This document shows, in pieces, positions 4,910-64,000 of a stretch of 64,000 nt of DNA. The stretch spans positions 1,505,171 through 1,569,170 of the forward strand of contig OY811977.1 in assembly GCA_963681505.1 (NCBI GenBank). The letters run 5' to 3'. The translations under genes were made by a program, and so were the position numbers. This DNA comes from Eunapius fragilis. Its lineage: Eukaryota; Porifera; Demospongiae; Spongillida; Spongillidae. The notes beneath the pieces were generated by a model. That model searched no databases and was not told the origin of the DNA. It saw only the letters and a program-made list of their open reading frames with translations. Position 1 is the stretch's first letter. The number at the start of each line of letters is the position of its first letter.

Positions 4910-25530
<20,621 letters not shown>

Positions 25531-29400: not shown

Positions 29401-32400
29401 TTAATGAACTCAACAGGTCTGTACAAATTGACACAGAAATCTGATTGCTCAGCTGATGATGTTGACGTATTTTCTACCACTCTTTATTTCATAGTCAACA
29501 GCTGTGGTTATAACTTAAATGATGCACACCCATCTCTGCTTATAAGGTATACTCCTGACATATTTGAATCTCAGTTCATCCCTCCCTCCCCCTCTCTCTC
29601 CATCCTCCCTCTCTCCCTCCCTCCCTCTCTCCATCCTCTCTCCCTCCCCTCTCCATCCTTCCTTCCTCCCCCTCTCTCTCCATCCTCCCTCCCTCCCCCT
29701 CTCCCTCCCTCCCCCTCTCCCTCCCTCCCCCTCTCCCTCCCTCCCTCCTCCTCTCCCTCCCTCCCTCCCCCTCTCCCTCCCTCCCTCCCCTCTCCCTCCC
29801 TCCCCCTCTCCCTCCCTCCCTCCCCCTCTCCCTCCCTCCCTCCCCCTCTCCCTCCCTCCCTCCCCCTCTCCCTCCCTCCCTTCCCCTCTCCCTCCCTCCC
29901 TCCCCCTTCCCTACCTCACCTACCTCCCTCCTTACCCTCTCTCTTTCTCTCTCCCTCCCCTCTCTTTCTCGATCCCAAATATGCACATATGTACGAACAA
30001 TCAACATCCAGTGCAGCCCAAAGCAACAATATGGCTATCGTGGTGAAGCTACTGTTAGACCACGGTGCAGTATACAGTACAAAAAGTCGTGCCAAACAGG
30101 AAACCATTTTCCACATTGCCTGCCAGCTGAAGTCTGCACTCCGCTATGTATACGCACTTATCTATCCCACACTTTTATCTGCATCGGACATTAATGGAAA
30201 CCTTCCTCTGCATATCGCTTGCCACAATAATGACATTCAGTTTGTGTCATGGATATTTAAGTCAGCCCAAAGCAAAGAAAGCCACCCCTTCCCCCCTGCG
30301 GCAGTTAGATGCGCGCTGGTTGAAACCGTGCCTATTGAAGCAACAGTTGTATCCCAGTTCACTCCTTCTTTATTGGCAATGAAAAGTGCTAAGATTGCTT
30401 CTCTAAATATGAGAGGACAAAGCATGTACCATATTGCAACATCCAATGGTTATAGCCAATTGCTCAGCTTGTTACTGGATATTTTGGACATTATGCAGGG
30501 TGTCTATAATAAGTATGTTGTCCTTGCATCAGATTTTGAGACGCAAAGAACGCCCCTTGACATAGCCATAGCAACTCAACAGACAGAATGTCTGAGGCTT
30601 TTGCTGGAGTTCCTCAACAGGCATGGTATGCTGCAGAAGGTGGTGCAGGATAGAAGGTTCATGGAAAGTGCTGCCAATGTTGGCAATGTCGACATAATGA
30701 AGCTGTTAGTGAAGTATGGCTTTAGCCAGGGTTTGGAGGGAGCCATTGGTAAGGTCCAGGACCAACAGCTGAAGCGTCTTCTCCTGTACTATTACACACA
30801 GTTAACCAGTGCTCAGGCCAAACAGTCAGATTACAAAAATGGACCAAACTCAGGGGTGATTAGATGGAATGGTGCCAGAATTGAGGCCCTGGACTTTAGC
30901 TGGATTAGAGATAGCTTAAATGCTATGGAGACCACCTCTCAAGTCATAATAAAAACAGAAATGGCTTCACAATCTCTTCATGACCTTTGTACCATTCAAC
31001 AGCTTGCATCGCAGTGTTTGAAGTATTTCGACAGTAATGCTATTTGTGTACCATTATCAAATACTAACCCCTTAATTAGTATTACAAAAATTGAAATAAC
31101 ATACTGCTCACTGAATTATATCCCTTCAGACCTGTTCCGATTGCCAAAGTTAGAGATTCTAGATTTGTCTCAAAATTATCTTCAGGAGCTTCCCACATCT
31201 GTGCATTCTTCACAGTGCATTTATTCATCTCAGTCCTTGAAGCGGCTTGTCCTGGATGGTAACAAGTTGAAGAAGTTACCAGAAGATCTCTTCCTTGGCT
31301 TGGTCAACAGTCTGGAACACTTAAGTGTGCAGAAAAATGAGTTAACAGAGCTTCCACCTGGACTTTGGATAATGCCTCATCTCAAGGAGCTTAACCTGTC
31401 AGACAACAAATTGTCACAGCTGCATTATTTATGTTCAGATAATACCTGCACTGATGGACTAAATTTTCCAAAAATGGTAATTGCAGCTATCGATGACGGT
31501 GTCTGTAAACTTAATTCATGCTCTTCACAAAGGGGTATTATGTCTGATAGTATTTGGACATACATTGAAAGGCTTGAAATATTCTACAAGACACTTCATT
31601 TGGCTTCCAGTGGAAAGTTTCACGTGAAAAATGTTCAAGAATGGGTTCGCTTTCTTCATGAGCAGAGGAGCAGGGATCAAGGGGCAGAGGATTTTGACGG
31701 CAATGAAACGGAAAGTGAATTGCCTACCATATTGTCCAGGGAAGAATATGAAACTTCTGTACTGTCATCCCTTAATCTTTCACAGAACATGTTCACAAAA
31801 ATACCAGTGCAGCTGCCCTGTCTGGCTCCAAACCTACAACGTATAAACATGAGCCACAATCAGATTACCTCAGTGGACCTTGTCCACAGCATACCAAGAA
31901 ATGTGTCTTCTGTCCGCCTGGACCATAATTTTATAGAGAATATGGATGCTCAACAGCCACCCCTTTCAATCTGTTCATCTCCCTGCATGCTTCTGCTACT
32001 GCAGCCTAGTGAGTCCAATTGTTGCACTCACACAGCTCATAATCGACTAAAGTCACTTTTAACTCTCACACTTGGGCACAATAGATTAAAAGATTTTAAA
32101 GCTGTCGATATTGGTGCTAGCCTAGATGTAACGAACGTGGTGTGTTCTGTGGTAGTTCACTTTCCACAACTATCCATCCTGTCGCTGGAACACAACGAAC
32201 TTACTTCTGTCCCATCAGGCATACTGAGCTTGACCTCCCTGAACTCCCTTAACCTGGCTCACAATACAGGAATTACAAGTCTCCCTAGTAAAATGGGTCT
32301 TCTCTCGCTTTCCAGTTTAAATTTGGATGGTTTGTCATTAGCTGAAATCCCAATCAACCTCATACAAAAGCCTTCACCTAGATATCTCCTGGGCTTCCTT

Positions 32401-33669
32401 AAAGGAATTTGTCTTGGGTAAGTAAAAATTGTTATTGTTTATCTATGCATCAACATAATTTTCTCCAGGAAGGAATATTATCATCACATGAAATTGATGT
32501 TCATGGGGTCAGCAAATGCTGGCAAAACAACTCTACTTCTTCAGCTTACAAAAAAGGGGAAAATGATCCACCAGAGGGCAGTTCAAGTGCAGAGAAATGG
32601 ACAGCCCCTCTCCACCGTGGGTGTTGAGCTAGGACAGTGGGAATATTCACCAAAGAAGAGCCTTTCTAATATCACTTTCATGACATGGGATTTTGGCGGG
32701 CAGGTACACAATATACCATATATTGGTGGGTAACTATTTAACTTTTCCATTGCAGGTAACTGCACAAGTGTGTTTTAATTAAGTCGTTTCTTTGATATCA
32801 TTTTGATATCTTTCAACAATATTTCATTCTGGTTTTCCGGATAGATATTTTGACAGATGTGGGAATATTGCATCAAAACATTCCCAACTCTAATGCTTAT
32901 GTTATACATGGCAATGATTAATGTACCTGAAGTTGAGATTACACACCTTTTCCCATACCATAGTAATTTCACATCACCTCTTCTCTGATTACAAAGTACA
33001 CACAATATGCAATGTTTAGTTGAGGTCACTAAGAAGCACAATAATAATATCATACACACAGTATTTTAAGAACACAATTTACTCTTTGGATTAATGATGC
33101 CATGATCAGGGATAACATAGTGCAGTACGTATAGTTGTTCTATGCCATGCTGAGTTCAAATATTATGTCGACACCTATAGGAATTTCAATGCGTCCTTCT
33201 TTCGCTGTAGGAGGAATACTATGCCACTCATCAGTGCTTTATTTCACATCGTTCAATTTATCTTGTGATCTGGGATGTGAGAGAAAAAGAAGAGGGGCTA
33301 AGAAACATTAAGCCCTGGCTGGAGAATATTGAGGTTTGATACTTCAAGCTAGCATTGGTCGCCACAAGCAGTTTTCTTTTTCTTTTATAGGCCAGGGCAC
33401 CAAATGCTCCAGTAATAGTGGTTGGGACTCATGCTGATTGCATTGAAAATACTTCTGCTCTCGAAAAGGCCTTCAAGAAATTATATATAGAATACAACAC
33501 AAGCAGCTTTGCTTATCCTAAGGTCCAACCACATTGCTTCTTTGTGAACAGTTTCTGTCCAGATGATGTACAAAATCTAAGAAAGTATATTTATGACTTT
33601 ACAAAGGCATACAGAAATCCATGTAAAGCTGAGATAATAGCCTACTGACGAAACCTGTGTGAAGACTAC

Positions 33670-33708
<39 letters not shown>

Positions 33709-36700
33709 ATTCTATTTTTCTTGTGCAGGGGCAAGGAGTGATGCACCACCACTACTCGATGAACCTATTCCATCATATTACATGACAGTGCTAAAAATCA
33801 TACAATCTATAACTGCGAAATGCAGCAAGCAGAACACCATACCTATCTTCACCAGGAATGAATACCTGTATGTTACGATTGTACTAATGGGAAAAAAGAA
33901 AGTAATGTGTTATTACCATGCCTGGGAGGGGAACTAATGATCAATTTGCACAGTCTCCAATGGATTATAATTGTAGTAATTTATTTCTATGTATGTACAC
34001 AATTTCAACAGGAAGGAAGTGTTCCAACAGGGATATGGTGGTAGTGTTCAGGAGATAGTGGAAGCCAGCAGTTTTTGGCACGACAATGGTGAGATGGAGG
34101 CAACATGTGCAGCTATAGATAACTCTAGCATTCAATGTCCTCCAGGCATCATCCTGCACCACAAGGGGATAATAATGGATGAACTGTATTGTGTGGATCC
34201 CCAATGGCTGTGTGCAGTAATGGCAAATGTGATCACAGTGCAGGAGAAGAATCCATTTCAGAAGAATGGTACACAGGCTGTAATTATTTGGTTTGTGCAG
34301 AATTATATTCTCAATCATCAAAGAGAAATATTTAACTCATACCCAGAGCACATTATGTTCGCTTTTTCAAATATCTAATTCCTTATTTTGCCAACATACT
34401 TATGCTTACCAATTTCATTCTCCAATTGTTTTCCAATCACAACTGTTCCAGGTTTTATGTGTGTTGAAGACTTCTCAAAGCTGTGCAATGGACCCCGTAT
34501 GGAATCTACAGCATCCTTTACCAGTGCAGTCACCAACATCATGCAGAGCTTTGAGGTCATCCTCCTCCTGGACCAACAGTCCATCCTCATCCCCTCACTT
34601 ATGTCACAGCAAAGGGAAAATGCATGTGCAATCATGGAGGACCAGAATGGAAAACTTTCTGTGAGGGGTACCACTAGTCAGCTTGCAGTACCAATAACCA
34701 CTCAGACACAGCACGTCTTGCTGAGGCACTACATCCTTCCATTCATCCCGAATGGGTTCTTCTCTCGCCTGATATCTCGCATCTGCAGTGTTCCGAACAT
34801 TATTGCACACTGCAGAAGTACGTTTGGAGCACCTGATCCTTGGTGGAGCTGCTGGAAGGATGGTGTCTCCCTGAATTGTGAAGGGGCTGAGATCCTCAGG
34901 ATTGTCCCTGTGACCTATCCACTGCCAGGCTCGGAAGCTACATACATTATAACAAGTTCTGGTCATGAAGCAGTTACGATGCCCAGCGGCATTGAAGTGA
35001 GGGCTATTCCATTACTAGCAAGCAGAGGAGGAGATTCAATGCCAGGCTCCACAGGCCACATGCGTGCAGCCACTTGGCTACTTCAGCAGGCTATTGAGTG
35101 CATCGATTCTATTTTTGATGACTGGTACGCAGCGTTTGGCAGACAAAGGGGCTTCAAGCTCTCAACAATACAGCAAGGTGTTCCGTGTCGTATGTGTGAG
35201 ACACAAAGGCTCGCCCTGTCAGCCCCATGTTGTATAGCTGACATTCCTTCCAAGAAAAATGCAGAGGGAAATTTTTACTTGTTTTCATCACCCATTTGTG
35301 CTCATGCTGTTGCAGTGACACAGGTGCTACAGTGTCCCATTCATGGAAGTATTAACGTCAGAGAAATGGCGCCTGATATAGTAGGGATTTTTTTTTACTG
35401 TCATGTATTAAGTTATCTTTCATCTCCTTAATCTAGGTGTTTGGAGATCTCCCTCAGTCGATGATTCATACTGCTGAGAACATAAGGATTGCTTCCGTGA
35501 TAGGAAAAGGTGGATTTGGTGCTGTGTTCTCTGCTAGCATCGGCAGAAATGTAATATACTGTGCTCCTAATTGTTGCACATCAAGCACATTAGCATTCTG
35601 CAGGTGAATGAATCTCAGAGAATTGCTATCAAGCAGTACGTTGTGGTTGATGATCCCTCTGCTGAAGTTGAGTCTTCAGCATGGCAAAAATACCAAGAGG
35701 CCAGCCGTGAAGCACGTGTGATGAGTAGGCTGGTTCATGACAACATCCTTGGTCTGGTGGGCGTTGCCATTGCACCCCTGATGCTCCTGCTGGAGCTGGC
35801 TCCACTAGGTGACCTCAAAGCATGCGTGGAGAGGTTCCAACAGGCAAATGTGAAACTGAATGTTTGGACTCTGAACTCCACATTGATACAGGTGATTTTA
35901 GATGAGGTTATAGGAGAAGTGCTATTTAGCGATGTATTTTAGCAAGGCAAGGCACAAGGGTACAATTACCATTCTGCTTCAGTACACACTTAGATATCTT
36001 ACACTATCGGTTAGCTGTAGCGTAGGTTAATTTGTGTCTCTTCCTCTCAATGATGCATTCTTCAATAGACGTCTTATTTAATATCAATGTGTAAATAAAA
36101 CAATGGTTTCAACATCTGAACGTTTGTGTTTTCCCACATCAACAGTCATTGAAAGCATATGGGCATTGTGAGGCACACTGCATAGAGTAGCCAAAAATCT
36201 AAGCAACATTGAAACTCTTGGTTATACTACTCAACAAATTTCAATAGCTGACCTTTTTGTATAAGTAATTACTTTTTAAATCCAACAGCTAGTTGTGAAT
36301 TGATTTTATAGCAGTAGTTTATGCTCAGTGTTACATAATGTGCATGGAAATATACATTGCGCAGGTTGGAAAGGCTCTGGACTACATCCACTCTAACAAG
36401 TTCATATTTCGGGACCTAAAACCAGGAAACATACTAGTCTGGAAGTTCCCACTTCCTGAAAACCAATGGAATTCAGATTCGGCAGTTTACGTTAAGCTTG
36501 CCGACTATGGGATATGTCAGCAGTACACTCCTCAGGGCGTGAGAGGGATGGAAGGCACGCCTCCATATCTACCACCCGAGGTGCTTCTTCATAGTGGTCA
36601 GCAGAGCCAGAACACAAAGCTAGATGTCTACTCCTTTGGAATGCTCATGTACTATCTGTTCACATTTGAAAATCCTTTCTATGATGAGACCAAGCCAATC

Positions 36701-39700
36701 AGTTCCTTACTTGAAATGGGAAAGCGACCCTCTTTATCATTCAAGGTAAGCTTCTACCTCCAACACTTACATCCAAGTTCATAGTTCATACCACCAGCAG
36801 TACAATATATTTATATATGTCATATATGATTTGTACCACCAGCAATGCCCTCCCTCCCTCTGGCTGTTGGAGCTAATGTGCTGGTGCTGGAGTGAACATC
36901 CCTATCACAGGCCTGACCTTAAAGAGGTGCTGGCAGTGCTCCAGAATGGTGCCACCTCGCAACTGATTTCAGCGTTTCCAATCTCAAACATCAATGCAGT
37001 TATTGTAGCTGCATGTGCCACACTGAAAGATAACCCATCGTTTGTGTCATCTACAGCTGAAGCACAAAGCGCAGCTCCTGCCCCTGGCTACTTGAGTCCC
37101 TTCAGTCAGTTGTACAGTCAGCCTCTGAAATCTCCATCTGTAGATGTCTGGTGTGCTTGCAAAGATGGACTTAAGCGCATTGAATGTCAAGCAGCTAGTC
37201 AGACAATAAGGGTAAGAAGTCTGTATAATATTGTATTGTGCTATAGGAGCCGCTGTTAGCTTTGTGCGATGTCAGACTACACACTTATATTGTAGGATCA
37301 TGGGCGCCTGTGGTGTAGTGATGGAAGGCATTTACCACAAATTGTTTTGTACCTGCAATCGGATCTATAATTATTAGTTATGTATAATCCAATCATTCCT
37401 ATTTCTTATTATAAGAGTTCTTTGGATATTTACCTGGTTTTTATTTTTTTAATTTATTTTTATTCTTGTCATACTGGTAGTAAAAGAAGTAATATGTATA
37501 GTAAGATTTTGTTGACCTATGATGGATTTCAACAATCCCATATAGTTTAATATAGTTCGCATTATTAACTAACAATTATCGAACACATAATGCCAAATTA
37601 CACTATATTGTTGCTAGGAATGTGTCCAATGACTCTCGTCGTTTAGCCTTTTGAGTCACTAGAGCTTGCATGTAAAGACGTGATGGCATTCTAGTGCCCA
37701 TATTGCTCTTTACCTCACAGAATGTCGAACCACTTGAGGGAGAATGTGTCGCTATGACGTCCACCTCACATAGCCTCATTTGGGTTAGCAGAGCCCCCTC
37801 TACCGGACAGCTGAGCATATATGACACCAAAAGTTATCGCAGGATAGCAACGTGGGGCAGTAAATACCCCATCAAGAAGCTCCTTTACAACGCTGCAGAG
37901 GACATTGTTGTTGCAATGACAAAAGGCGATGTGCATGTCTTTTCTGCCCACGACTGTACCTGTACTAAAGGTCTGACGCCCATTCTTTCACACCCTATAC
38001 TTGACAGCTTCACTGAAGTCACTTTAGTTAGGGCAACCAAAAAAGGCAATGAGGTTGACTTATGGTATTCAGTTCAATCAAAGCTGAAAGCCATGAAGAT
38101 CTCCGTTGATGGCACCACCGACATGACATTTCACCAGTATGCTGGAAGCTCAGTAACGTGCATGGCACCAATGAACGAAACAGAAGGCAACGCAGTACAA
38201 GTTGTCATCGTCAGCCATGGATCATGTGTCGAGAGATGGAATGCTGATAACAAGAAATTGTTACAGCTGCTCAACTGTAGTGAGCTGATCTGGGGGAAAT
38301 GTGAGTGTATGCATTGTATCTTCTTAATGCCTACGTTCATGTTGGCCCCACAAATGAAAGCCTCATTCAGTAATTTCTTGCATAAGTTGCATGTTGTTTT
38401 TTTGGAAGGAATTATATGCCCTATAACCTGTACATGTAGTTGAAGAAATAGGGAATCGAATTCTGATATGCATCCCTTCATAGGAACCTTTCATGCAGCC
38501 CACGTGAAGCAACTAGAATAATTTTATTTCATACAGATGAAGCTTTTTAGAATACAATAATTTCTATATGTACATGTACATGTACTTACTAAGATCTTCT
38601 GCTTTAGACACCAGCAGCATGGTGACATCATTATTATGCTATAACAATGTCCTGTACATTGGTACTGAGGGTGGAGTCATGCTAGCTCTGAACCCAGTCG
38701 ACCTGACAGCTCTATGGAGTGTCACGGCTTCAAAGACACCAATCAGGTGTATCACTGGAACCCCACTGGATACCCAAGACCTTAAACGTAGGTCTCACCA
38801 TTCACTGGCCTTCATCGTTATTTGTGATTATATCATTTTCAAATTATCAGAGCACAGGGTAGTAGTTATTCATGCTGATCATTTACCTTTAAATAATGGA
38901 GTGCCCATGGCTTCAAAGGCACCAATCAGGGCCTCTATCATTATGTTCTTATTCCATAATTCCATTAATGCCTACAAAAATCATAATCCTGTTTGAAATT
39001 GAAGAAACAGAAATTAGTCAAATTCTGTAGACAAACATACAATCTCTTTCCGGTGTTTTTTATTTAAATGCTTAAGCACAAGACTGACTGTTTTCATAAT
39101 TCTGAAATAATACTACTGCGTAAAAATCTGATTGTTATATGATACGTGTATACGTCACGTGCTGCTATAATTATAATGTTATACAGTTTTTTTTACACAG
39201 TGACTGATATTGTAAAGTATTATAGGTCTTAAAATATTTTAACAACAGACTTGCCTCGCATAGTATTTGCATTGATAGGTCTAATTATATTATCAAAGTT
39301 CAAATGGCCATTTGCTTGTCTTGGATGTTTCATTTATTCAACACATATTCTTTAACCTATCACTCACCTGAATGTAGGCAAAGTTGCTGGTGCATATATC
39401 AGTGCCACTAAATGATATCTCAAAATGACAAACTAACCATAAAATGTGCTATTTTAATTTTGCTTCAACTTTGTGTTTACCACTTTTAGTGATTTCTTCT
39501 TTGCAGGTCACACAAAACCTGGAATGATTATCTGTTTTAATAAAAGGTACACTGGAGTTTACAGAGGCTCTAAGAATATCCCACCATCTTTGAACCCACC
39601 TGGAGAACCAGAGTCTGGTTATAACTCATCCACAACTCCTCGCATTAAGTTGCTCACCTCCTCGTCAGATGACCCTCACATGTTCATGTGGTCTTCTTAT

Positions 39701-39715
39701 CAGCTGATGAAATAA
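26417..39715 (+). CDS. LRRK-like Roco protein kinase, paralogue A (ANK-LRR-Roc-COR-kinase-propeller)
   Basis: Twenty exons, about 2232 aa: 26417-26453, 26552-26586, 28796-28868, 28942-28980, 29417-29546, 30012-32417, 32469-32703, 33211-33333, 33391-33622, 33729-33867, 34012-34088, 34146-34268, 34452-35380, 35437-35550, 35604-35891, 36365-36745, 36843-37211, 37721-38300, 38608-38787, 39507-39715. Domains: helical N-terminus (aa 1-105); ankyrin-like repeats (about 106-380; GNLPLHIACHNND, TPLDIAIATQQTE); LRRs split by a roughly 100-aa insert (to about 906); Roc (907-1103); COR (1104-1526); kinase (1527 to about 1835); C-terminal beta-propeller/WD40-like region. The family couples a GTPase switch to a Ser/Thr kinase. 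The first two exons are small and rest on phase and on similarity to gene C (MDRSVGEKLVGD versus MEECVGTKQN). The hAT element lies in intron 2. It lies about 0.9 kb downstream of NCAPD3. LRRK1/2-type by architecture; exact orthology not determined. Confidence 0.9.
27144..28059. mobile_element. hAT-type DNA transposon (probably non-autonomous), 916 bp
   Basis: Ends are perfect 15-bp inverted repeats, TAGGGTTTGCATCCG at 27144 and its complement ending at 28059. They are flanked by 8-bp duplications GTGCCTAT at 27136-27143 and 28060-28067. An 8-bp duplication fitting nTnnnnAn with YAGGG ends is diagnostic of the hAT superfamily. Subterminal zones carry many ATCCGG motifs, candidate transposase-binding sites. 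It is inserted in intron 2 of LRRK-like gene A. It is too short for a full transposase; a minus-strand open frame inside is listed separately. Confidence 0.88.
27318..27755 (-). CDS. Uncharacterised 145-codon open frame inside the hAT element
   Basis: Open from ATG at 27755. It includes SRKIQKSLKTGDLMLSKWEE, WLPVRLGKKEDNCSWEV and DGFYASDLVDGEPMAIVI. Composition is protein-like, not repeat-derived. I see no transposase signature (no hAT dimerisation or BED motif). It could be a captured host exon, an element-encoded accessory protein, a transposase relic too decayed to recognise, or chance. A GAAGTGAGT site early in the frame may be a splice donor. Confidence 0.3.
   Translation of the reverse strand: MAMAFTSMTTEVSRKIQKSLKTGDLMLSKWEEEIEGEEAKIQWLPVRLGKKEDNCSWEVIRKDGFYASDLVDGEPMAIVIINIGNKSCLFYIVYNTCKVMPMLHNAGIDIVMSTFNSFSRFNYIDQFILVLIGGACIPLSIWHIN
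28887..28921. repeat. Perfect 16-bp-arm hairpin filling a 73-bp intron of LRRK-like gene A
   Basis: AAAAAAAAACATAACT, then GGG, then AGTTATGTTTTTTTTT. The hairpin occupies the middle of intron 3 (28869-28941) and ends about 20 bases before the acceptor. Confidence 0.75.
29575..29970. repeat. CCCTCCCTC-rich tract forming most of intron 5 of LRRK-like gene A
   Basis: Pure pyrimidine low-complexity DNA between the donor at 29547 and acceptor at 30011. It has no stop codon in several frames, so it merges exons 5 and 6 into one false long frame. The equivalent introns in B and C are also pyrimidine tracts. Confidence 0.92.
32469..33622 (+). other. Roc GTPase domain of LRRK-like gene A
   Basis: Three exons. 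The P-loop GSANAGKT is encoded at 32506-32529, the switch II/G3 motif DFGGQ at 32689-32703 (followed in exon 8 by EEYYATHQCF), and the G4-like THAD at 33427-33438 in place of NKxD, as in LRRK proteins. Length and exon phases match paralogues B and C. All motifs needed for GTP binding look intact. Confidence 0.9.
35437..36745 (+). other. Kinase catalytic core of LRRK-like gene A
   Basis: Glycine loop GKGGFG (exon 35437-35550), ATP-anchoring Lys in IAIKQY (exon 35604-35891), catalytic loop FRDLKPGN at 36407-36430, and metal-binding DYG at 36503-36511. DYG in place of DFG is an LRRK hallmark. The HRD His is Phe here (Tyr in human LRRK1/2). The activation segment ends GTPPYLPPE rather than the usual APE. 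The kinase appears catalytically competent. Confidence 0.88.
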
Positions 39716-40359
39716 TTATTTTAAAAACTTGACACATATTTATTTGCATTCAAAAATGTAATACCATATTGCTAACTTTTACTTCGAGCTTATATATTGC
39801 CAACTCATTCCTTACATCAGTTACATATGTGTATGGGCCCCCTGAGACAGCCGCATTTGCTATTGGGGTGAGATAACGGTGCGGGCCAGTACTAAAGTGG
39901 GGAATCTCAGGCAAGTGATCATCACAGTTAAGTGTATCCGATAATGCAAGTATGCGCGCTTGCATCAAGCCATGGATATTAGTAAGGTAAAGGGATTGGA
40001 AACCAACCCAATCAGCACCAATCAATCCTCTGCCATAACTGTAACCATATAGATAATTATCTATGGTGTCACTACTAGCTGAAGGTCGGTTCCTAGACAT
40101 CAAGGTTTGAAATTTTGACGACAAAGCTTCAGGCCGGTCGGTCCAACAGACAGCTGGGCAGATCATATTCATAGGCGGGGTGCCCAAATCATATTCATAA
40201 ATATCAGATCATTTTCACAATTAAATTTTACCATATATGGCACTCCCCCCCTGTATCCGCCCATTAAAGTATCTTCATTTAGTATAGGGCTATAAAAATG
40301 AAACCTAAGATCTAAAATTCGTGCACTACCTTTTCGTGATCTCAGTTTTCGCACCACGC
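39716..40359. other. Intergenic between LRRK-like genes A and B
   Basis: No AATAAA found. A minus-strand frame open from 40187 to 39750 (145 codons, containing YGYSYGRGLIGADWVGFQSL) is compositionally protein-like but has no recognised family or clear splice partners. Part of 40185-40262 resembles the MITE at 55336-55470. Confidence 0.3.
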
Positions 40360-40394
40360 TTAGTCCGAGCGACGGACCATACTGGTCGGACTAA
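40360..40394. promoter_or_regulatory. 35-bp inverted repeat 14 bp upstream of gene B start codon
   Basis: TTAGTCCGA (40360-40368) and TCGGACTAA (40386-40394) are perfect 9-bp arms. An inner GACCA/TGGTC pair extends the symmetry. It lies in the presumed 5' UTR or core promoter. It may be a dimeric factor site or an RNA hairpin; neither is shown. Confidence 0.4.
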
Positions 40395-40408
40395 ACAGTT
40401 TTGAAATC

Positions 40409-53815
<13,407 letters not shown>

Positions 53816-54768
53816 ACTCTGTACAAAATTGACATGTGCTGTGGCAATGAAAGAATTATTCACGTTTTAGCAATACATTTGGGCGGGAATCATTCGCGCC
53901 CAATTTGGGGTTGTGCTTGGTATCATCTGACCAATAATATCACTTGTCCGCACCGAGATGGGAGATCTTTTGTTAACTTGTATCACTTAATCGAACACTG
54001 GACACGGTGTGCAAATAAAATTATTACTCACTTTCTTCGTTGCTTGGAGGTTTGGCGTTTTTTTAGCGTGTGCAAGTTGCTCGAGGAGGTATAGCTCTAA
54101 ATGGTTAACTTATCTGTTGGTAACTAATCTCGTAACCTTTATAAACCGGAGTATGAAATAATTAACGCATACGGGATTACGGTATGTGATGGCGACGAAT
54201 TGGGCTATTCAACCGTACACCCCTACAGATGACAATAATTGCAAACGTACACCCCGGGACAATATATAAAAGCATCCCTGGACAAGCTTATATTATATCT
54301 CCACCTCCCAGGGACAGACTTGTAAATGCACCCTGGACAAACTTCTGTTTTGTTCCACCCCCCTGGACAAGCTTCTATGTTGTTCCCCTCCCCCCTGGAC
54401 AAGCTTTTATTATGCCCTAACCCTAATCCCTTCCAGAACTCCTGTATCCGCCCCTACTCAGTACTTTGCAGCACCAACCCGTATGATTGGCTCGTGGCGA
54501 CTTTGGTCCTTCAACTTGAAACGCGTGGGCATCATGTTTCATTCGTAGTATAAGTTGTTCCTATGCGTTGGCCACCAGACTCGTTTCTACTATACTGTCT
54601 GTCAAGTTTTTTACACAGCGCTAGTCGGTATATTTATCACAATGATTATTAAGATGATTATATTTATTTCTCCACAAGCTAGTTCGACACAATTCAGAAG
54701 GCGTGGCTCCGACCTGCGTGTCATATACAGAACAAGGCACGCACCGTGTTACTGCAGTCTTTCGAGCG
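53816..54768. other. Intergenic between LRRK-like genes B and C
   Basis: AATAAA at 54014-54019 is a likely poly(A) signal for gene B. About 54245-54415 holds four to five degenerate copies of CCCTGGACAAGCTT-containing units. An open stretch 54680-54799 leads into the first recognised exon of gene C. Confidence 0.45.
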
Positions 54769-57700
54769 ATGGAGGAGTGTGTGGGTACGAAGCAGAACGG
54801 TACGTTTACTGGGACGGTGCTGCAAATCCTGTTGATTGCCAAAGCGTGCATGTGGGCGTTCCTGATTGTTAATTGCTTCTTTTTTTTTTAATGATTTGGT
54901 GACGGCAATTCGTTATGTTCGACTGATATAACTTATGTCAGAAAACTTAAACCTTAATGTAAAAGATGTATGCATGTTCCGCTTTCTTTTAGGAGAGGAA
55001 ACCTCTACGGAAGTCAATGCGAAGGTCAGTCGGAAGGTTTATCACTAACATAAACCCCATTGGTTCCTACAGACACTTCTTTCGACCATCCTATCATCTC
55101 TAGTGGGTCAAACGCTCAATGCAGAAGTATACCCCATAGGTAGGCGCAATTTGAATGTATCAAAGGATCAGTGTAATATATGGTCCCCCCCCCCCGTTCA
55201 AAAAGCACGTGACAACGATGATTTAAAAGCACAACTACAAGCTCGTAAGTTCATGTACATCGCAAATCTATTTTGTACACGCGTAGGCATCTGTCTTATA
55301 GCATAGCTTCAAAATTATTACATCCTTCCATATCAGTAGCGGATCCAGAGGGGGGGGGGCTGAAACAATATTCACAATTAATTTTCACCATATAAGGATT
55401 GTCAGTACCATATATGGTGAAAATGAATTGTGAATATGATTTTAGCCCCCCCTCTGGATCCGATACTGCATGTGTCGTAGAAGAAGCAATAAAGCTGTGT
55501 TATTGTAGCTAGTTTTTCACGTGCGCACATGTGGTGTGCACGTGTTTTTTTTTTTTTAACGTCTTAGTGGCATTCCCAGGTGCTTATCTCATAAGGAAGT
55601 CCTTTTGATTGAAGCTGGCCACCATATTTTTACAACTGCAATGTTTTATTTATTTATTTATTTTAACCCACAGACCTGCACAGAATAGCACAGAAATCTG
55701 AATGCACTTGTGATGAAGTTGAAATGTTTTCCAATGCCCTTCATTACCTCGTCAATCGGTGTGACTATGACTTGCGTGATGCTAGCCCTTCTCTGCTCCT
55801 GAGGTGGGTCTCTTTCCTAAGCCAACTGATTGTGTCATTCTGGTCTTTGATTACATGAGGAAAAATTTATCCCCTCTGTAATGCTCTCCCCCTCCCCCTC
55901 TCTCCTCCTCACCCTCCCCTCCCTTTACCCTTCCTTCCTTCTCTTTCCCTCACCACTCTCCCTTTCCCCTTCCCTTCCTATCTTTCCCCCTCCCAACTCT
56001 ATAGGGCTGCCTATGGCAACAATATGGCTATTGTCCTAAAACTCCTGTTGGATCATGATGCAGCGTATAATGACACAAATCCTGACAATTTGGAAACCAT
56101 TCTCCACATTGCCTGCAGACTAAATTCTCCGCTTCGCTACATCTATGCTCTAATATACCCTAGTCTTCTTAGCACTCCAGACATACAGGGGAATCTCCCA
56201 ATCCACATAGCATGTCAAAAAAATGACATCCGATTTATTTCCTGGCTTTTAAAGTCAGTTCTCTGCAGAAATGGTATCCCTCCAATGACCTATGGGGATG
56301 CAGGAACACTATTTATTGGAGCTAATATTGAATCAGACTACACTCCTCCTTTATCATCTGCCAAGTATAGCAAACTGTCTGCCACAACCACTATGGGGCT
56401 TACTGTGTATCACATTGCGGTATCCAATGGCTACTGTCAGCTGCTCAGTCTGCTGCTTCATGCTCTGGAGCTGATGCACGATGTCATTGAAATGGACATT
56501 GTTGTCACTCCAGACTTTGAAAACAGAAAGACGCCCCTTGACATAGCCATAGCAACCCAACAGACAGAATGTCTGAGGCTTTTGCTGGAGTTCCTCAACA
56601 GGCATGGTATGCTGCAGAAGGTGGTGCAGGACAGAAGGTTCATGGAAAGTGCTGCCATTGTTGGCAATGTCGACATAATGAAGCTGTTAGTGAAGTATGG
56701 CTTTAGCCAGGGTTTGGAGGGAGCCATTGGTAAGGTCCAGGACCAACAGCTGAAGCGTCTTCTCCTGTACTATTACACACAGTTGACAAGTGTTCAGGTG
56801 CTGTATGAGCTGCAGTCAGATTGCAAGGAAATTACAGTGGGGCAGATTAAATGGAATGGTGCTGTCGTTGAGGACTTCAGTATTGCCAGGATTAATGATT
56901 TCTTCAATGCAATGGAGTCCATCTCCCAAGCCATAAGACAAACAGAAGCGAAATCAGAGGGGTTCCCTCGTGATCTTCACACAATTCAGCATCTTGCATC
57001 AGAATGCCTACACTACTTTGAAAATGGTCCTGTCATTGCATTGCAGTTGAACACAAGTCCCCTTATTCCCATTACAGAGATCGACATAACTCACTGCTCT
57101 TTAAAGTCAGTTCCACCTGAACTGTTCCAGCTACCCAAATTGGAATCCTTAAAATTGTTGAACAATTGCATTCAGGAGCTTCCCACATCTGTGCATTCTT
57201 CACAGTGCATTTATTCCTCTCAGTCCTTGAAGCGGCTTGTCCTGGATGGCAACAAGCTGAAGAAGTTACCAGAGGATCTCTTCCTTGGCTTGGTCAACAG
57301 TCTGGAGCACTTAAGTGTGCATAAAAATGAGTTAACAGAGCTTCCACCTGGTCTTTGGATAATGCCTCATCTCAAGGAGCTTAACCTGTCAGAGAACAAA
57401 TTGTCACAGCTGCATTATTTCAGTGACAGAATAATTATTGATGACAAGAGTTTTTCTGAGAGAGTGCTCTCGGCTCTCGATACATGTTCCCATAGATCTC
57501 AATTGAGTCTTTCCGAAACAGTTGCTTTATATCAAGGAGCTGAAAATAATCGTGACATATGGATGTATCTGTATAGGCTCCGTGTCTTCTACGAGATGCT
57601 ACATAAGAGGAGTAGTGCTCAATCAGCTCTAGGAAATTTCGTAGAATGGGTACAACTGTTACACAAACAGCGCCTTTGGCTAAAGATGGCAGAGGAAAGC

Positions 57701-60700
57701 GAGTCAGAATTGAATGCTTTACCTGAAGTGTATTTTGACGAAGAGATTGGAACATCCAGCTTGACATCATTAAACATTTCCCACAACAGCTTCACCGCGT
57801 TTCCCGAGGAACTGCCGTGCCTGGCTGCAAACCTGCAACGCTTAAATATGTCCCACAATTACATCAAGTGCGTGAACCTTGTTCACGGGCTGCCTCCCAA
57901 TGTTGTATCTGTCCATCTGGACCACAACCTCATTGAAGATATGTTGGCACCTGAGCCACAAGCTGTTCGACGTTGCTCCTCCCTGCGCACACTGCTACGG
58001 CAAATACCTTTAGACTGCTGCACCCACACTGCTCACAATCAACTGAAGTCACTTGCAAACCTCATGCTTGGCCACAACAAACTGAAGGATTTTATAGCTG
58101 CTGATCTTGATAATTGCACCAATATTGATATAGAAAGCATAGCGATTTACTCTGTGATCATTCCGTTTCCGCAACTGTTGGTCCTGTCGCTGGAACACAA
58201 CGAACTTACTTCTGTCCCATCAGGCATACTGAGCTTGACCTCCCTGAACTCCCTTAACCTGGCTCACAACACGGGAATTGTCACCCTGCCGAGCAAGCTG
58301 GGATTTCTCCCACTTTACATTTTAAACCTGGAGGGCTTGTCACTGTCAGGAATTCCAATGAACCTTGTAGAAAAGCTGTCATCCAAGTACCTCCTAAACT
58401 ACCTCAAAGGAATTGTTCAAGGGTTAGTAAGCGTCAAACGTCTATGTCAAAAAAAAAATAATTCTTCTCTCCACTTCCTCCCCTTATCTCTCCACTTCCT
58501 CCCCTTATCTCTCCACTTCCTCCCCTTATCTCTCCACTTCCCCTTATCTCTCCACTTCCTCCCCTTATCTTCTTCTCCTCACCCTTATCTTCTTCCCCTC
58601 ACCCTTTAGAAAAGAGACTTTTCGCCACATGAAGCTGATGTTAGTGGGATCAGCAAATGCTGGTAAAACAACTCTGCTCCTTCAACTTACGAAGAAAGGA
58701 AGAATGGTTCACCAAAGGGCAGTTCAGGTGGGGATTAATGGACTGCCCTTGTCTACTGTGGGTGTTGAGCTAGGTCAGTGGGAATATTCAAGGAAGAGAA
58801 ACCCAAAGGTTACTTTCATGACGTGGGACTTTGGAGGTCAGGTAGGCATGAATCTTTCGCATTAATTGTCACATGTTTCAAATTTGTCTTTAAAATTTAG
58901 CATAGTCCCAACAAATTAAGTAAAAGACAATTATTTTGAACCACCACTCACATGCACTTGTATCAAAAGGTGCAAGTGGCTAATGTGATTTTTATTCTGA
59001 CTGAGGTTTAATTGATTATTCATATGGTGTCTGGTTTATCCATGCGGTTGTCATGTGTTAAGTGTTGGAGCAACAGACTGTCATCTTTCACTGTAGGAAG
59101 AATACTATGCCACTCATCAGTGCTTTATTTCACATCGTTCACTTTATCTGGTGGTGTGGGATGTGAGAGAAGGAGAAGAGGGGCTAAGAAACATTAAGCC
59201 CTGGCTGGAGAATATTGAGGTTTGATACTTCAAGCTAGCATTGGTCGCCACAAGCAGTTTTCTTTTTCTTTTATAGGCCAGGGCACCAAATGCTCCAGTA
59301 ATAGTGGTTGGGACTCATGCTGATTGCATTGAAAATACTTCTGCTCTTGAAGAGGCCTTCAAGAAGTTGTATATAGAATACAACACAAGCAGCTTTGCTT
59401 ATCCTAAGGTCCAACCACATTGCTTCTTTGTGAACAGTTTCAGTTCCTCTGACATGAGACAACTGAGAAAGTATATTTACCTATTTACAAGAACATACAG
59501 AAGCCCAGGTTAGAACTGTCATTAAACCTTCATGTATTGTGTGGCCTATTTGGATGTACATGTGTGTGCGTGCATATGTGTGGGTGTATCTTGTGCAGTG
59601 TCCTTGTTTAATCCTTGTGCAGGGGCAAGGAGTGATGCACCACCACTACTTGATGAACCTATTCCATCATATTACATGACAGTGCTAAAAATCATACAAT
59701 CTATGACTGTGAGATGCAGCAAGCAGAACACCATGCCTATCTTCACCAGGAATGAATACATGTATGTTAAAAATGCTTATGTATTTTGCAATAAAGGCAT
59801 GGGCACACATTCACTCAAAAATGCATGTGGGAACCAAATGTGCTTCATTGTTGAAAGGAATGGTTTCTGTGGCTCATTTCTTCATTCCGTTGATTTTTTT
59901 TTTTGACAGTTTATATTTTGGGTGTTAAAAGTCGTCAACATTTGGACGGCATGTTTATGTAGCATTCTATAGTTTTAAAATCCAGATAGATTTGCATATT
60001 ACCTACAGTGCATTCTACAATAGCATTATCGCTATCCCAACCCCTCTACTAATGTCTGGAGATATTTTTAAAATGCCAAAAAAAAAACACAAAACTAGAT
60101 GTGCTTGTGAATTGTGGTCAGATACTCAACACATGTGTGCTTTGGCAGGAAGGAAGTGTTCCAATGTGGATATGCTGGTACTGCTCAAGAGATAGTGGAA
60201 GCCACCAGTTTCTGGCATGACAATGGTGAGATTGAGACAACATGTGCAGCTGTAGATGATGACTTAAACATATAATGATCCTTCAGGCATCATCCTTCAT
60301 CACAAAGGAGTCACTATGGATGAGTTGTATTGTATTGATCCCCAATGGCTGTGTGCAGTAATGGCAAATGTGATTACAGTGCAGGAGAGGAACCCATTTC
60401 AGAAAAATGGTATTGCCAGTTTGTATCTGTGGTACATTTAAATATGAAACAGGACATGGTTAAAATGTCTCACTTTACTATGTTAGTTGTTCAATAATAT
60501 TTTGTTATATATGGGACAGTGTCCAGCAAAATCACCACTTCAAAATTTTCATGATAAGCAAAAGAAAAGTAACGCTTGCATTGAAATGTATGGCTAATTA
60601 AAAAATTCAGTGCCTTTTAAATTTTATGATGGATAGCCCAATTTTGGATGTGTAATGACCATTTGATAGTGGCTCTTCTTTGCAGTTCACAATAAATTTG

Positions 60701-63700
60701 AAAACTTGAAAAACTACCCAGAAATGTAATTTTGCTGGACACAGTCTCAATATTGTTACATTGTACTAGTCTTTTTCCCCTCAGATATTACCACATCATA
60801 TATTTACTTGATGTTCAAAATAGTCAAGAAATACATATATTTCACACAGGGCTTTTTAATGGAGCTAGTCAGCACTATTTATGTTCCCCTCATAGTCACA
60901 TATAGGTCATTGCGTAAGCAAATCCAAATTTTATGTTATTGTATACATATTGATCAGCAGTCATCTGGTACTGGTTTATTGATTTGCTGTTGCACAACAA
61001 CTTGAGTTTAAATTGAATCTATACGTGTTGCTGAATGAGAATATTACATAAACACACAAGCAAAGTTAAACACATACTCTAGACAGAATGGCCCTTGAGT
61101 TGGCTCTGATCAGGGTCAAATTCAATCTACCGTAGATCTGGTTTATTGTGATGGACTTGAACCTATAATTACTTTTTTCTTTTTCTTTTACAGGATTTAT
61201 GCAGGTTGAAGACTTTGTTGCGCTGTTCAAGGTGGGCTCAAAGCAGTCCATCAACGCAGTCATCAGCATCATGCAGAGCTTTGAGGTCATCCTCCTCCTG
61301 GACCAACAGTCCATCCTCATCCCCTCACTTATGTCACAGCAAAGGGAAAACGCATGTGCGATCACTCGGGATGCTTTCGGTCGCCTTTCCATGCAGAGCA
61401 CAATCGACCGCCTCGCGGTTCCCATAGCCACTCAGACACATCACGTTCTGTCGAGGCACTACATCCTCCCTTTCGTCCCCAACGGGTTCTTCACTCGCCT
61501 GATTTCTCGCATCTGCACCTCCCCGCTGATCATTGCGCAATGTGAAGGCGTATTTGGAGGGCGTAATCCGCGGTGGCGCTGCTGGAGGGGAGGGGTGTGT
61601 CTGGTCTGCAACGATACCGAAGTCCTCAAGATTGTCCCCGCCACCTACCCGCTCCCGGGCACCGATGCGACGTTCGCGGTCACAGGTTCAGGTCGCGAGC
61701 TGGTGGAGAAGCATAGTGGCATTGTCGTCACGGCGACCCCGCTGCTGCCAAGCCTGGTTGTCGGGTCGACCTCCGACTCCTACGCTCGCGCGCGCGAGGC
61801 CACGTGGCTACTCCAGCAAGCCATCGACCACATTGACTCGATATTTGCAGACTGGTACGTGGCGTTCGGCCGAAGGAGAGGCTTCGAACTGGCCATGATA
61901 CTTCAAGGGGTACCCTGCGACAGGTGCGAGGGGGAACGACACACTGCTGATGCTGCTCAGCAAAAAGGGACACCGGATATTTGTGGCGCTGACGTGCCAG
62001 CCCAGGAACATGTCAAGGTCGAGAAGAGCTACTTCTTGTTCCCGTCATCCTTTTGTGCTCACATGGTGGCTACGAAGCAAGACCTGCAGTGCCCCCTTCA
62101 TGGGAGAGTTAGTGTATCCAACATTGCTCCTGACCTGGTGAGCAGAAAATGTTCCCCTTGCTTTTTAAAATATACTCGTCTACCCTGAGGGGCCATTCAT
62201 AAATTACGTCACGTTGAAGGGGGGGTATCTGCCAGTGTGACAATGTATACATCAGTATGGGATAATGTATGACGAAGAGGGGGGAGGGGGGGGGGGGTCC
62301 ATAATGGTTAAAGCGCGACCTTCTTGCATTGTTGTTACTGCAACCTTCCTTGTTTTCCGCTGTAGGTTTTTAGAGATCTCCCACAGTCTATGACTTACAG
62401 TGCTAAAGATGTCTTGACCACTTCATTCCTTGGAAAGGGAAGCTACGGTGCCGTTTTCTCTGGCACCATTAGCACAAATGTAATGAATATGTCTCCAATT
62501 AATGCACATCATGTTATTTTTGTCCCCCCCCTCCCCCCTTCTCTATAGGCTCAAAGAGTTGCTATAAAAATGTACGTTGCGGAGGACCCCTTTGCTGCCG
62601 TTGAGATTGCAGCGTGGGAAACATATTTGCAAGCCAGCAGAGAGGCGAGGGTGATATCCAGGCTGGTTCATGACAACATCCTTGGTCTGGTGGGCGTTGC
62701 CATTGCACCCCTGATGCTCCTGCTGGAGCTGGCTCCACTAGGTGACCTCAAAGCATGCGTAGAGAGGTTCCAACAGGCAAATGTGAAACTGAATGTTTGG
62801 ACCCTGAATTCCACGTTGATACAGGTGGGGTTTTGTAGACTGAATTAGGGGGAGGGGGAGGGAGAAAGGCTACTACTGCTGTCTCAAAAAGCATAACTTC
62901 CTCAGATGATGTGGTCTTGAATATCACTTGTATAGGCCAGGTGTCCCACAATTATCTGATGGTATTAAGCCACAGAGTAGCTCCATAACTGATAATTGTA
63001 GTCAAAAGGTCAATTAAGCTAAAATAAATTACAATGCAAAAGCAATCAATGGATGACTAAAGTTAGGTTGGTGCCCAAATTGTATTAAGAACCCCTGAAT
63101 GAATGCCAAATAACCACTAATTTCTATTTGGCTATCAACATCAATTTATGTCTGCCAATAACTAGGGTTGATTTCAAAATGTCAAACCTTTTTAGAAAGC
63201 CTTGTGTTTGATTCTCCTGAGTTTTATATATCTCATATTTTTCCCAGGAATGCTGTTAGAATACTTAACCACGTATCATTACCAGTTAATTAACTATTTG
63301 GCTAATGTTTAAACAGGTTGATGTGAACTAGGTCACACTGCTGACAGTTAGGTGCAACTCCTTTATCTCACTCCAACAGGTTACAAAGGCTCTTGAATTT
63401 ATCCATTCACAAAGGATTGTATTTCGGGACCTAAAACCAGGAAACATACTAGTCTGGAAGTTCCCACTTCCTGAAAACCAATGGAATTCAGATTCGGCAG
63501 TTTACGTTAAGCTTGCCGACTATGGGATATGTCAGCAGTACACTCCTCAGGGTGTGAGAGGGGTGGAAGGCACGCCTCCATATCTACCACCCGAGGTGCT
63601 TCTTCATGGTGGTCAGCAGAGCCAGAACACAAAGCTAGATGTCTACTCCTTTGGAATGCTCATGTACTATCTGTTCACATTTGAAAATCCTTTCTATGAT

Positions 63701-64000
63701 GAGACCAAGCCAATCAGTTCCTTACTTGAAATGGGAAAGCGACCCTCTTTATCATTCAAGGTAAGCTTCTACCTCCAACACTTACATCCAAGTTCATAGT
63801 TCATACCACCAGCAGTACCATATATAGTCCAGACAGGCGTAGTTCTGGGGTAAACAGGATGCTTGTATGCAAAAAAAGAAATGCAATTTTGATTGTATCC
63901 TGTTTACCCCTGAACCCCACACATCAGTAGCTGCCAGTGCACCATATTCATATATTATATATATCTGTCGTTATACCACCAGCAATGCCCTCCCTCCCTC
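54769..64000 (+). CDS. LRRK-like Roco protein kinase, paralogue C (3' end outside window)
   Basis: Exons seen: 54769-54799, 54993-55024, 55073-55139, 55206-55244, 55674-55803, 56005-58422, 58610-58841, 59097-59219, 59277-59508, 59623-59761, 60149-60225, 60287-60409, 61194-62137, 62366-62479, 62549-62824, 63380-63760 and 63983 to the window end. Phases match genes A and B throughout. Ankyrin repeats, LRRs, Roc, COR and kinase are present; the propeller lies beyond 64000. The start is uncertain. ATG 54769 gives MEECVGTKQN, but the open frame extends upstream without ATG through GVAPT, a motif also found in gene B's first exon, so an upstream exon may exist. The COR exon (61360-62000) is much more GC-rich than its A and B counterparts. 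The kinase N-lobe has diverged (GKGSYG, VAIKMY) while the C-lobe is nearly identical to A and B. Confidence 0.88.
55336..55470. mobile_element. Palindromic MITE-like element in intron 4 of LRRK-like gene C
   Basis: CGGATCCAGAGGGGGGG near 55341 is mirrored by CCCCCCTCTGGATCCG ending near 55461. Between them ATTCACAATTAATTTTCACC is mirrored by GGTGAAAATGAATTGTGAAT. A degenerate half-copy appears at about 40185-40262 upstream of gene B. Confidence 0.65.
58455..58600. repeat. Approximately 21-bp pyrimidine tandem repeat, intron 6 of LRRK-like gene C
   Basis: Copies of CTCTCCACTTCCTCCCCTTA, about six, filling the 187-bp intron before the P-loop exon. The corresponding introns in A and B are short (51 and 69 bp) and lack it. 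Confidence 0.88.
58610..59508 (+). other. Roc GTPase domain of LRRK-like gene C
   Basis: P-loop GSANAGKT, DFGGQ followed by EEYYATHQCF, and THAD are intact. The first exon is 3 bp shorter than in A and B because the loop before the G3 strand is one residue shorter. The exon start is shared with gene B at DNA level. The second exon and the following intron (59217-59286) are shared with gene A. Confidence 0.9.
60513..60748. mobile_element. MITE-like element in intron 12 of LRRK-like gene C
   Basis: Terminal inverted repeats GTGTCCAGCAAAAT at about 60520 and its complement ending near 60743, extended by GGGACA/TGTCTC-like ends. Internal blocks (ATGATGGATAG, GAAAACTTGAAAAA) resemble the family-1 repeat at 23120 and 46475, so they may be distant relatives. 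Confidence 0.55.
62366..63760 (+). other. Kinase catalytic core of LRRK-like gene C
   Basis: Glycine loop GKGSYG (62366-62479), Lys in VAIKMY (62549-62824), FRDLKPGN, DYG and GTPPYLPPE in 63380-63760. The N-lobe differs from A and B at many positions (for example VAEDPFAAVEIAAWETYLQ). Identity becomes nearly complete from LVHDNILGLVGV onward. Confidence 0.86.
63843..63914. repeat. 72-bp inverted repeat in intron 16 of LRRK-like gene C
   Basis: TTCTGGGGTAAACAGGAT at 63843-63860 pairs with its near-complement at 63897-63914 across a 36-base loop. It is absent from the equivalent intron of gene A, which is otherwise identical up to about 36800. It therefore looks like an insertion after the duplication. 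Confidence 0.65.

Follow-up and report, generated by a model that had tools for sequence, protein, structure and literature searches.

Three tandem genes on contig C7 (A, B and C), all in one orientation and all of ankyrin-LRR-Roc-COR-kinase type, are mosaics of one another: when aligned over their whole length, they are 95-100% identical in patches and far more diverged elsewhere. These patches reflect recent sharing within the contig, beyond mere conservation, and they are very probably best explained by repeated, DNA-templated interlocus gene conversion within this array and, separately, within a second array of related genes. An earlier note on this DNA had proposed repeated conversion among the three copies, and the proposal is borne out by tracts of all three pairings, by unequal divergence among tracts, by tracts that cross introns, by aligned blocks without stops and by a second patchwork array.

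The window, a stretch of 64,000 nucleotides (C7:1505171-1569170), was analysed together with the genome to which it belongs (219 Mb in 24 contigs), probably that of an animal to judge from the type of gene and the introns. By aligned blocks, A extends over 29.4-38.3 kb, B over 43.1-52.9 kb and C over 55.7-65.3 kb, the last aligned block of C ending 1323 bases beyond the window end.

29413..38278, plus strand: gene A, partial model by blocks (tblastx/tblastn against the copies D, E and F described below; stop-free blocks; Pfam and PDB matches)
29413-29547, plus strand: gene A, N-terminal block
30010-32418, plus strand: gene A, ANK-LRR block
32470-32703, 33211-33333 and 33391-33621, plus strand: gene A, Roc blocks
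33731-33868, 34016-34087, 34148-34267 and 34454-35386, plus strand: gene A, COR blocks
35437-35550, 35604-35891, 36365-36745 and 36846-37019, plus strand: gene A, kinase blocks
37140-37217 and 37718-38278, plus strand: gene A, blocks 3' of the kinase
43117..52885, plus strand: gene B, same blocks as A, partial model (tblastx/tblastn and codon alignment)
55670..64000, plus strand, continuing beyond the window: gene C, same blocks as A, partial model (tblastx/tblastn and codon alignment)

Pfam searches retrieved Ank_2 in A, B and C, so that N-terminal ankyrin repeats are present as in LRRK, and LRR_8 matches mark leucine-rich repeats in all three. Gene A, on which Roc, COR and kinase were tested, matches Roc (2.1e-19) and Pkinase (4.4e-40), while COR-A and COR-B score under their Pfam cut-offs; the order is that of LRRK, with LRR followed by Roc-COR and then a C-terminal kinase. 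Among the best 60 of 2125 PDB matches to gene A, LRRK2 comes first with a whole-sequence E of 1.4e-66; it covers query residues 4-446 and fits best over Roc-COR. LRRK1 is matched as well, best at 519-868 of the query (the end of COR and the kinase). The kinase exon contains FRDLKPGN and ADYG, and DYG is typical of LRRK2. At E 0.01, Pfam gave no match, to WD40 or any other family, in 37694-38443 or past the kinase in the joined A stretch, the gene model being partial at its ends, and Rfam gave no match anywhere in the window. LRRK1 and LRRK2, which PMC6337361 in outline places in the Roco group with a C-terminal kinase, thus resemble the trio in ANK-LRR-Roc-COR-kinase order, and the trio differs from them in being a tandem triplication and, as far as the partial model of A shows, in lacking a match to the Pfam WD40 family in its C-terminal block. 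Elsewhere in the window, a 37-bp unit is repeated in tandem about 28 times at 17615-18660 (93% matches), and G-rich minisatellites at 13085-13841 (19-bp unit) and 14015-14794 (27-bp unit) lie just 5' of a 200-base N run.

The genome search gave 14 matches, seven of which (E <= 1.2e-35) are A, B, C and four further LRRK-type genes, three (D, E and F) on contig C17 and a more distant single gene (G) on contig C11. G, which was used as outgroup, is 42% identical in the ankyrin region and has recognisable matches to most blocks, with the order kept.

C17, about 2303-2312 kb (~2303 kb): LRRK-type copy D
C17, about 2335-2347 kb (~2336 kb): LRRK-type copy E
C17, about 2472-2485 kb (~2473 kb): LRRK-type copy F
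C11, around 6640357-6640917, minus strand: LRRK-type gene G

A codon alignment of A to F was built from 15 blocks without in-frame stops. Along it, a five-state HMM of the A/B/C pairings reached a log likelihood of -5590.4 vs -6510.3 for a homogeneous model. Its path has 44 segments, those of 2-10 nt not to be taken as events, and assigns 2907 of the 6117 spanned columns to the background, where synonymous divergence is near saturation (pS 0.647 for A and B, 0.697 for A and C, 0.697 for B and C). Fifteen segments are tracts of at least 60 columns. For pS, 15 tracts of roughly 100-600 bp (A+C, A+B, B+C or three-way) were trimmed by hand from the HMM segments, and in all 15 the closest pair has a pS of 0.00-0.15, so that blocks of low divergence between paralogues are flanked by divergence of 0.65-0.70. 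GC-biased conversion was considered and not adopted; a raw comparison puts GC3 at 0.487 in the tracts vs 0.458 in the background. The tracts are listed in A coordinates unless another gene is named, together with one intron stretch that prolongs an exon tract.

30550..30803 (C 56531-56784), plus strand: A+C tract, ankyrin region; HMM; pS AC 2.0/55.5
31181..31430 (B 44858-45107, C 57171-57420), plus strand: three-way tract; HMM; pS 0.11-0.20
31431..32044 (B 45108-45727), plus strand: A+B tract, LRR region; pS AB 2.0/131.8, C 0.72-0.74; AU test rejects other pairings
32177..32264, plus strand: three-way tract near the ANK-LRR exon end; pS 0.00-0.04
B 46186..46350 (C 58626-58790; A 32485-32649), plus strand: B+C tract over the Roc P-loop; pS BC 0.0/40.7, A 0.48
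33288..33390 (C 59174-59276), plus strand: A+C tract, Roc exon plus all 57 bp of the intron after it; 57/57 intron bases identical, exon pS 0.0/9.0
33397..33495, plus strand: three-way tract, Roc exon, hand-trimmed from HMM segment 33325-33555; pS 0.04-0.13
33731..33865 (C 59625-59759), plus strand: A+C tract, first COR exon; pS AC 1.0/29.5, B 0.68-0.69
B 48602..48857 (C 60153-60408), plus strand: B+C tract by pS and gap identity, two COR exons with their small intervening intron; trees of the block do not favour BC
34526..34626, plus strand: three-way tract, COR exon; pS 0.00-0.05
35542..35726 (B 50069-50260), plus strand: A+B tract, N-terminal part of the kinase; pS AB 3.0/24.8, C 0.64-0.68; AU 0.005-0.006 for other pairings
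35727..35850, plus strand: three-way tract, kinase exon, hand-trimmed; pS 0.03-0.09
36365..36745 (B 50731-51111, C 63380-63760), plus strand: three-way tract, kinase exon that carries FRD and DYG; pS 0.06-0.09, inter-array 0.60
36746..36810 (C 63761-63825), plus strand: A+C identity running on into the next intron; 64/65 bases identical
36846..36929, plus strand: tract, next kinase block, closest pair A+B; pS AB 0.07, AC 0.26, BC 0.20
B 52328..52448 (C partner beyond the window end), plus strand: B+C tract, C-terminal block; pS BC 4.0/26.5, A 0.62-0.74

Each of the blocks by which the earlier note had described the patchwork was recovered. The near-identity of A and C at 30540-30800/56520-56790 falls on an HMM segment with 98-99% identity in two 100-column windows from A 30558, with the refinement that B is distant only at 30550-30714 and joins the similarity at 30715-30803. 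The near-identity of A and B at 31425-32040/45109-45725, with C far from both, and the start of the P-loop exon common to B and C at 46187-46352/58627-58792 likewise have the low pS values listed above. The same holds for introns: A and C agree at 57 of 57 bases in the intron at 33334-33390/59220-59276, where B is about 50% identical, and the identity noted for the first 55 or so bases of the intron at 36746/63761 is 55/55 and continues to 64/65.

The closest-pair pS departs from the background with uncorrected binomial P values of 2e-5 to 6e-56 over the 15 tracts, and P is <= 1e-8 in 12 of them, the tracts having been chosen post hoc and hand-trimmed. Shared sites are also clustered non-randomly: at third positions, A, B and C show 421 pattern switches, as against a mean of 571.7 and a minimum of 518 in 5000 shuffles. 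A GENECONV-type analysis, which the earlier note had proposed as a check (5000 permutations, global P <= 0.01), found fragments in all three pairs, both on all sites (3 for AB, 5 for AC and 5 for BC) and on third positions (2, 4 and 3, respectively), with one kinase fragment recurring in all pairs. As a control, the nine pairs between the two arrays gave third-position fragments in 0/9 and, on all sites, a weak fragment within A 30961-31092 in 5/9, which means that constraint has some influence on the all-site P values. At 30961-31092, A and B are weakly similar to the copies of the other array on all sites and not on third positions; we read this as constraint, and conversion between the two arrays was rejected as a candidate. 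The tracts differ among themselves in synonymous divergence, e.g., 2/132 vs 11/55 in two AB tracts (Fisher P 3e-5), and heterogeneity over all tracts, chosen post hoc, has a P of 0.027. This inequality supports repeated events.

To examine the pairings by phylogeny, trees of single blocks were compared by the AU test with D, E and F as outgroup. The A+B block in the LRR region rejects the other two pairings (AU 1e-8 with the limits of the earlier note, 3e-6 with HMM limits), as does the second A+B block (0.005-0.006), and the A+C ankyrin block rejects the others as well (0.043/0.036 with the earlier limits, 0.007/0.030 for the HMM core), so that segments of the same genes carry conflicting trees. 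The A+C block in COR rejects AB (0.029) and not BC (0.19), and a 16-codon A+C segment in Roc prefers AB (0.78; AC 0.27) and rejects one alternative. No alternative was rejected by the B+C blocks at the P-loop (AU 0.088-0.09) and the C-terminus (0.27), no pairing was preferred by the B+C block of two COR exons (AB 0.63, AC 0.48 and BC lowest at 0.285), and in background and three-way segments the pairing of A, B and C was not resolved by the AU test. The earlier claim that no single duplication order explains the pattern thus stands on the conflict of A+B with A+C trees and on the contrast in divergence, and its B+C part falls short of rejection (0.088 and 0.089).

Protein trees with G were also built for 11 of the 15 blocks, from 895 background and 1002 tract columns. 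In the background tree, the branches of A, B and C are long (0.37-0.48), the summed branch lengths place them 0.82-0.94 apart and roughly 1.05-1.25 from D, and support is 55 for an A/B/C grouping and 30 for A with B. The background disfavours A+C trees (AU 0.042 and 0.006) as well as the tree that joins B to C and puts A next to D/E/F (0.021), and rejects a tree with two unresolved trichotomies (0.001); it does not reject (A+B)+C, (B+C)+A, the pair A+B with C next to D/E/F, or a ladder without a C7 group. In contrast, the tract tree supports A/B/C at 96 and A with B at 100, with branches of 0.04-0.11. Long background branches and short tract branches indicate that the copies are old and the patches young, and the tree obtained for tandem LRRK-type genes varies with the segment chosen, with a support for A/B/C of 96 in tracts vs 55 in the background.

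The copies D, E and F are less diverged than A, B and C, and their pairings also switch along the gene. Third positions show 107 pattern switches vs a shuffled mean of 174.7, and GENECONV-type fragments were found in 3/3 pairs, whether all sites or third positions are used, D/F being the weakest pair by third positions (P 0.0063). One long fragment, which runs from the kinase to the gene end, occurs in all three pairs. The ROC3 exon is 100% identical between D and E, the intron before it 63%; other introns are alike together with their exons, and the last two gaps are 93-99% identical.

Purifying selection, with the patches as the most constrained parts of the protein and no exchange at all, would account for the fact that pS among A, B and C tracks inter-array pN: with inter-array pS controlled, r is 0.50-0.64, and circular shifts reach the observed link in 0/101, 0/67 and 0/39 cases. 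Nevertheless, pS to D/E/F inside the 15 tracts remains at 0.45-0.76 while the pair itself is near-identical, and the patches are therefore not due to constraint on synonymous sites. As one moves along the gene, moreover, the close pair passes from AC through AB to BC, and one A/C intron is identical. The A+B tract of the LRR region has a pN to C of 0.36, and its pS of 2.0/131.8 vs 0.72-0.74 with C over the same codons contradicts such selection directly; we give this reading next to no chance. Unequal crossing-over or chimeric duplication is possible in tandem genes of the same orientation and could yield mosaic copies with one or two switches in lieu of repeated conversion. However, a crossover would switch everything downstream and alter copy number, and the HMM path of 44 segments contains several tracts with saturated background on both sides, all of which makes this origin highly improbable.

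Another candidate is conversion templated by RNA or cDNA, in which a spliced transcript as donor would leave identity across exon junctions and skip the introns. Both exon ends are at least 90% identical at 9 of the 42 A/B/C junction-pairs, vs 5.7 expected under independence, both intron ends are below 70% in six of those nine, and the A/B identity of the kinase exon ends at the exon ends. This excess is small, however, and D/E/F show none (27 observed vs 25.9 expected). As 34 of 42 A/B/C intron-pair comparisons are only 37-59% identical, pairing must stop there; unalignable introns would halt DNA-templated tracts at the same places, and cDNA is not needed to explain exon-limited identity. Several tracts enter or cross introns and include non-coding DNA (57/57 and 64/65 intron bases for A/C; the small-intron gap in the B+C COR tract, 97% for B/C and 83% with A), which calls for a DNA template for at least those tracts, and we consider a transcript donor very unlikely. 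Collapsed or chimeric reads might also produce patches, near-identical paralogues being error-prone in assembly and the assembly being the sole source of the result. Against such an artefact, the window's only N run (14847-15046) is far from the genes, the aligned blocks have no stops, the tracts bear their own differences and unlike divergence, and patchwork recurs on a second contig; it too seems extremely doubtful.

From the mosaic, the shared synonymous sites and introns, the conflicting A+B and A+C trees, the patchwork of the second array and the link with protein constraint in A/B/C, all of which are shown by the alignments, we infer a repair mechanism with donor and recipient copies and a feedback through a homology threshold. 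Under DNA-templated conversion, a broken copy would be patched from a neighbouring copy during repair, leaving a tract that matches the donor, and the adjoining intron would be converted too where it is still able to pair. Conversion would have been repeated between all pairs, and apparently the events were not simultaneous. For the most part, introns and fast-evolving protein regions would have drifted too far to pair and so would keep their old divergence, whereas constrained regions (Roc, kinase, and parts of ANK, LRR and COR) would stay similar and thus convertible again. The A/B/C pattern fits such a feedback, in which constraint maintains homology and thereby lets conversion occur, with the A+B tract in the LRR region as an exception to the link with constraint; in D/E/F the link between pS and pN is weak (rho 0.18-0.26; P 0.033, 0.035 and 0.26). 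Conversion hotspots shared by both arrays were considered and rejected, given that the three-way patches of the two arrays look alike by eye but the pS profiles are uncorrelated (rho 0.05-0.13, partial -0.02 to -0.07; observed values reached by 40/101, 19/67 and 15/39 circular shifts). We would like to note that polypyrimidine arrays separate the N-terminal block from the ANK exon at 29579-29943 (A, TCCC), 43351-43680 (B, 330 bases of CT) and 55884-55994 (C, weaker). The coding sequence beside them is unconverted background, and the arrays therefore do not look like conversion starts.

Interlocus gene conversion is well known, and the LRRK-type trio is a clear and strong further example. In the outline given in PMC3728101, GOT1p1 and GOT1p2 of the copepod Tigriopus californicus show a similar mosaic of high and low divergence along paralogues, which is attributed to continuing gene conversion; that study, so outlined, has gene pairs and population data, whereas here there are three genes, all pairings, a near-saturated background, a second array and one assembly. 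Nonallelic conversion between diverged paralogs is likewise described for a pair of merozoite surface protein genes in Plasmodium falciparum, where, as summarised in PMC10919680, its proposed outcome is allelic dimorphism of surface antigens; the present case concerns a kinase family in a single assembly. In a literature search by titles and abstract starts, none of the matches listed dealt with gene conversion between LRRK-type genes.

These genes are a clean case in nature for reading how far interlocus conversion reaches, given the near-saturated background, the near-identical tracts and a second array to compare with. The background distances of 0.82-0.94 among A, B and C, vs roughly 1.05-1.25 to D, suggest that the copies are nearly as old as their split from D/E/F. 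It is possible, and we put this forward tentatively, that the trio undergoes modular concerted evolution, in which three very old LRRK-type genes are held near-uniform by conversion in their GTPase and kinase switch while most other parts diverge, the A+B tract in the LRR region being an exception. If so, the process would have been ongoing for most of the time since the split from D/E/F, and one signalling module would be served by several diverging sensors.
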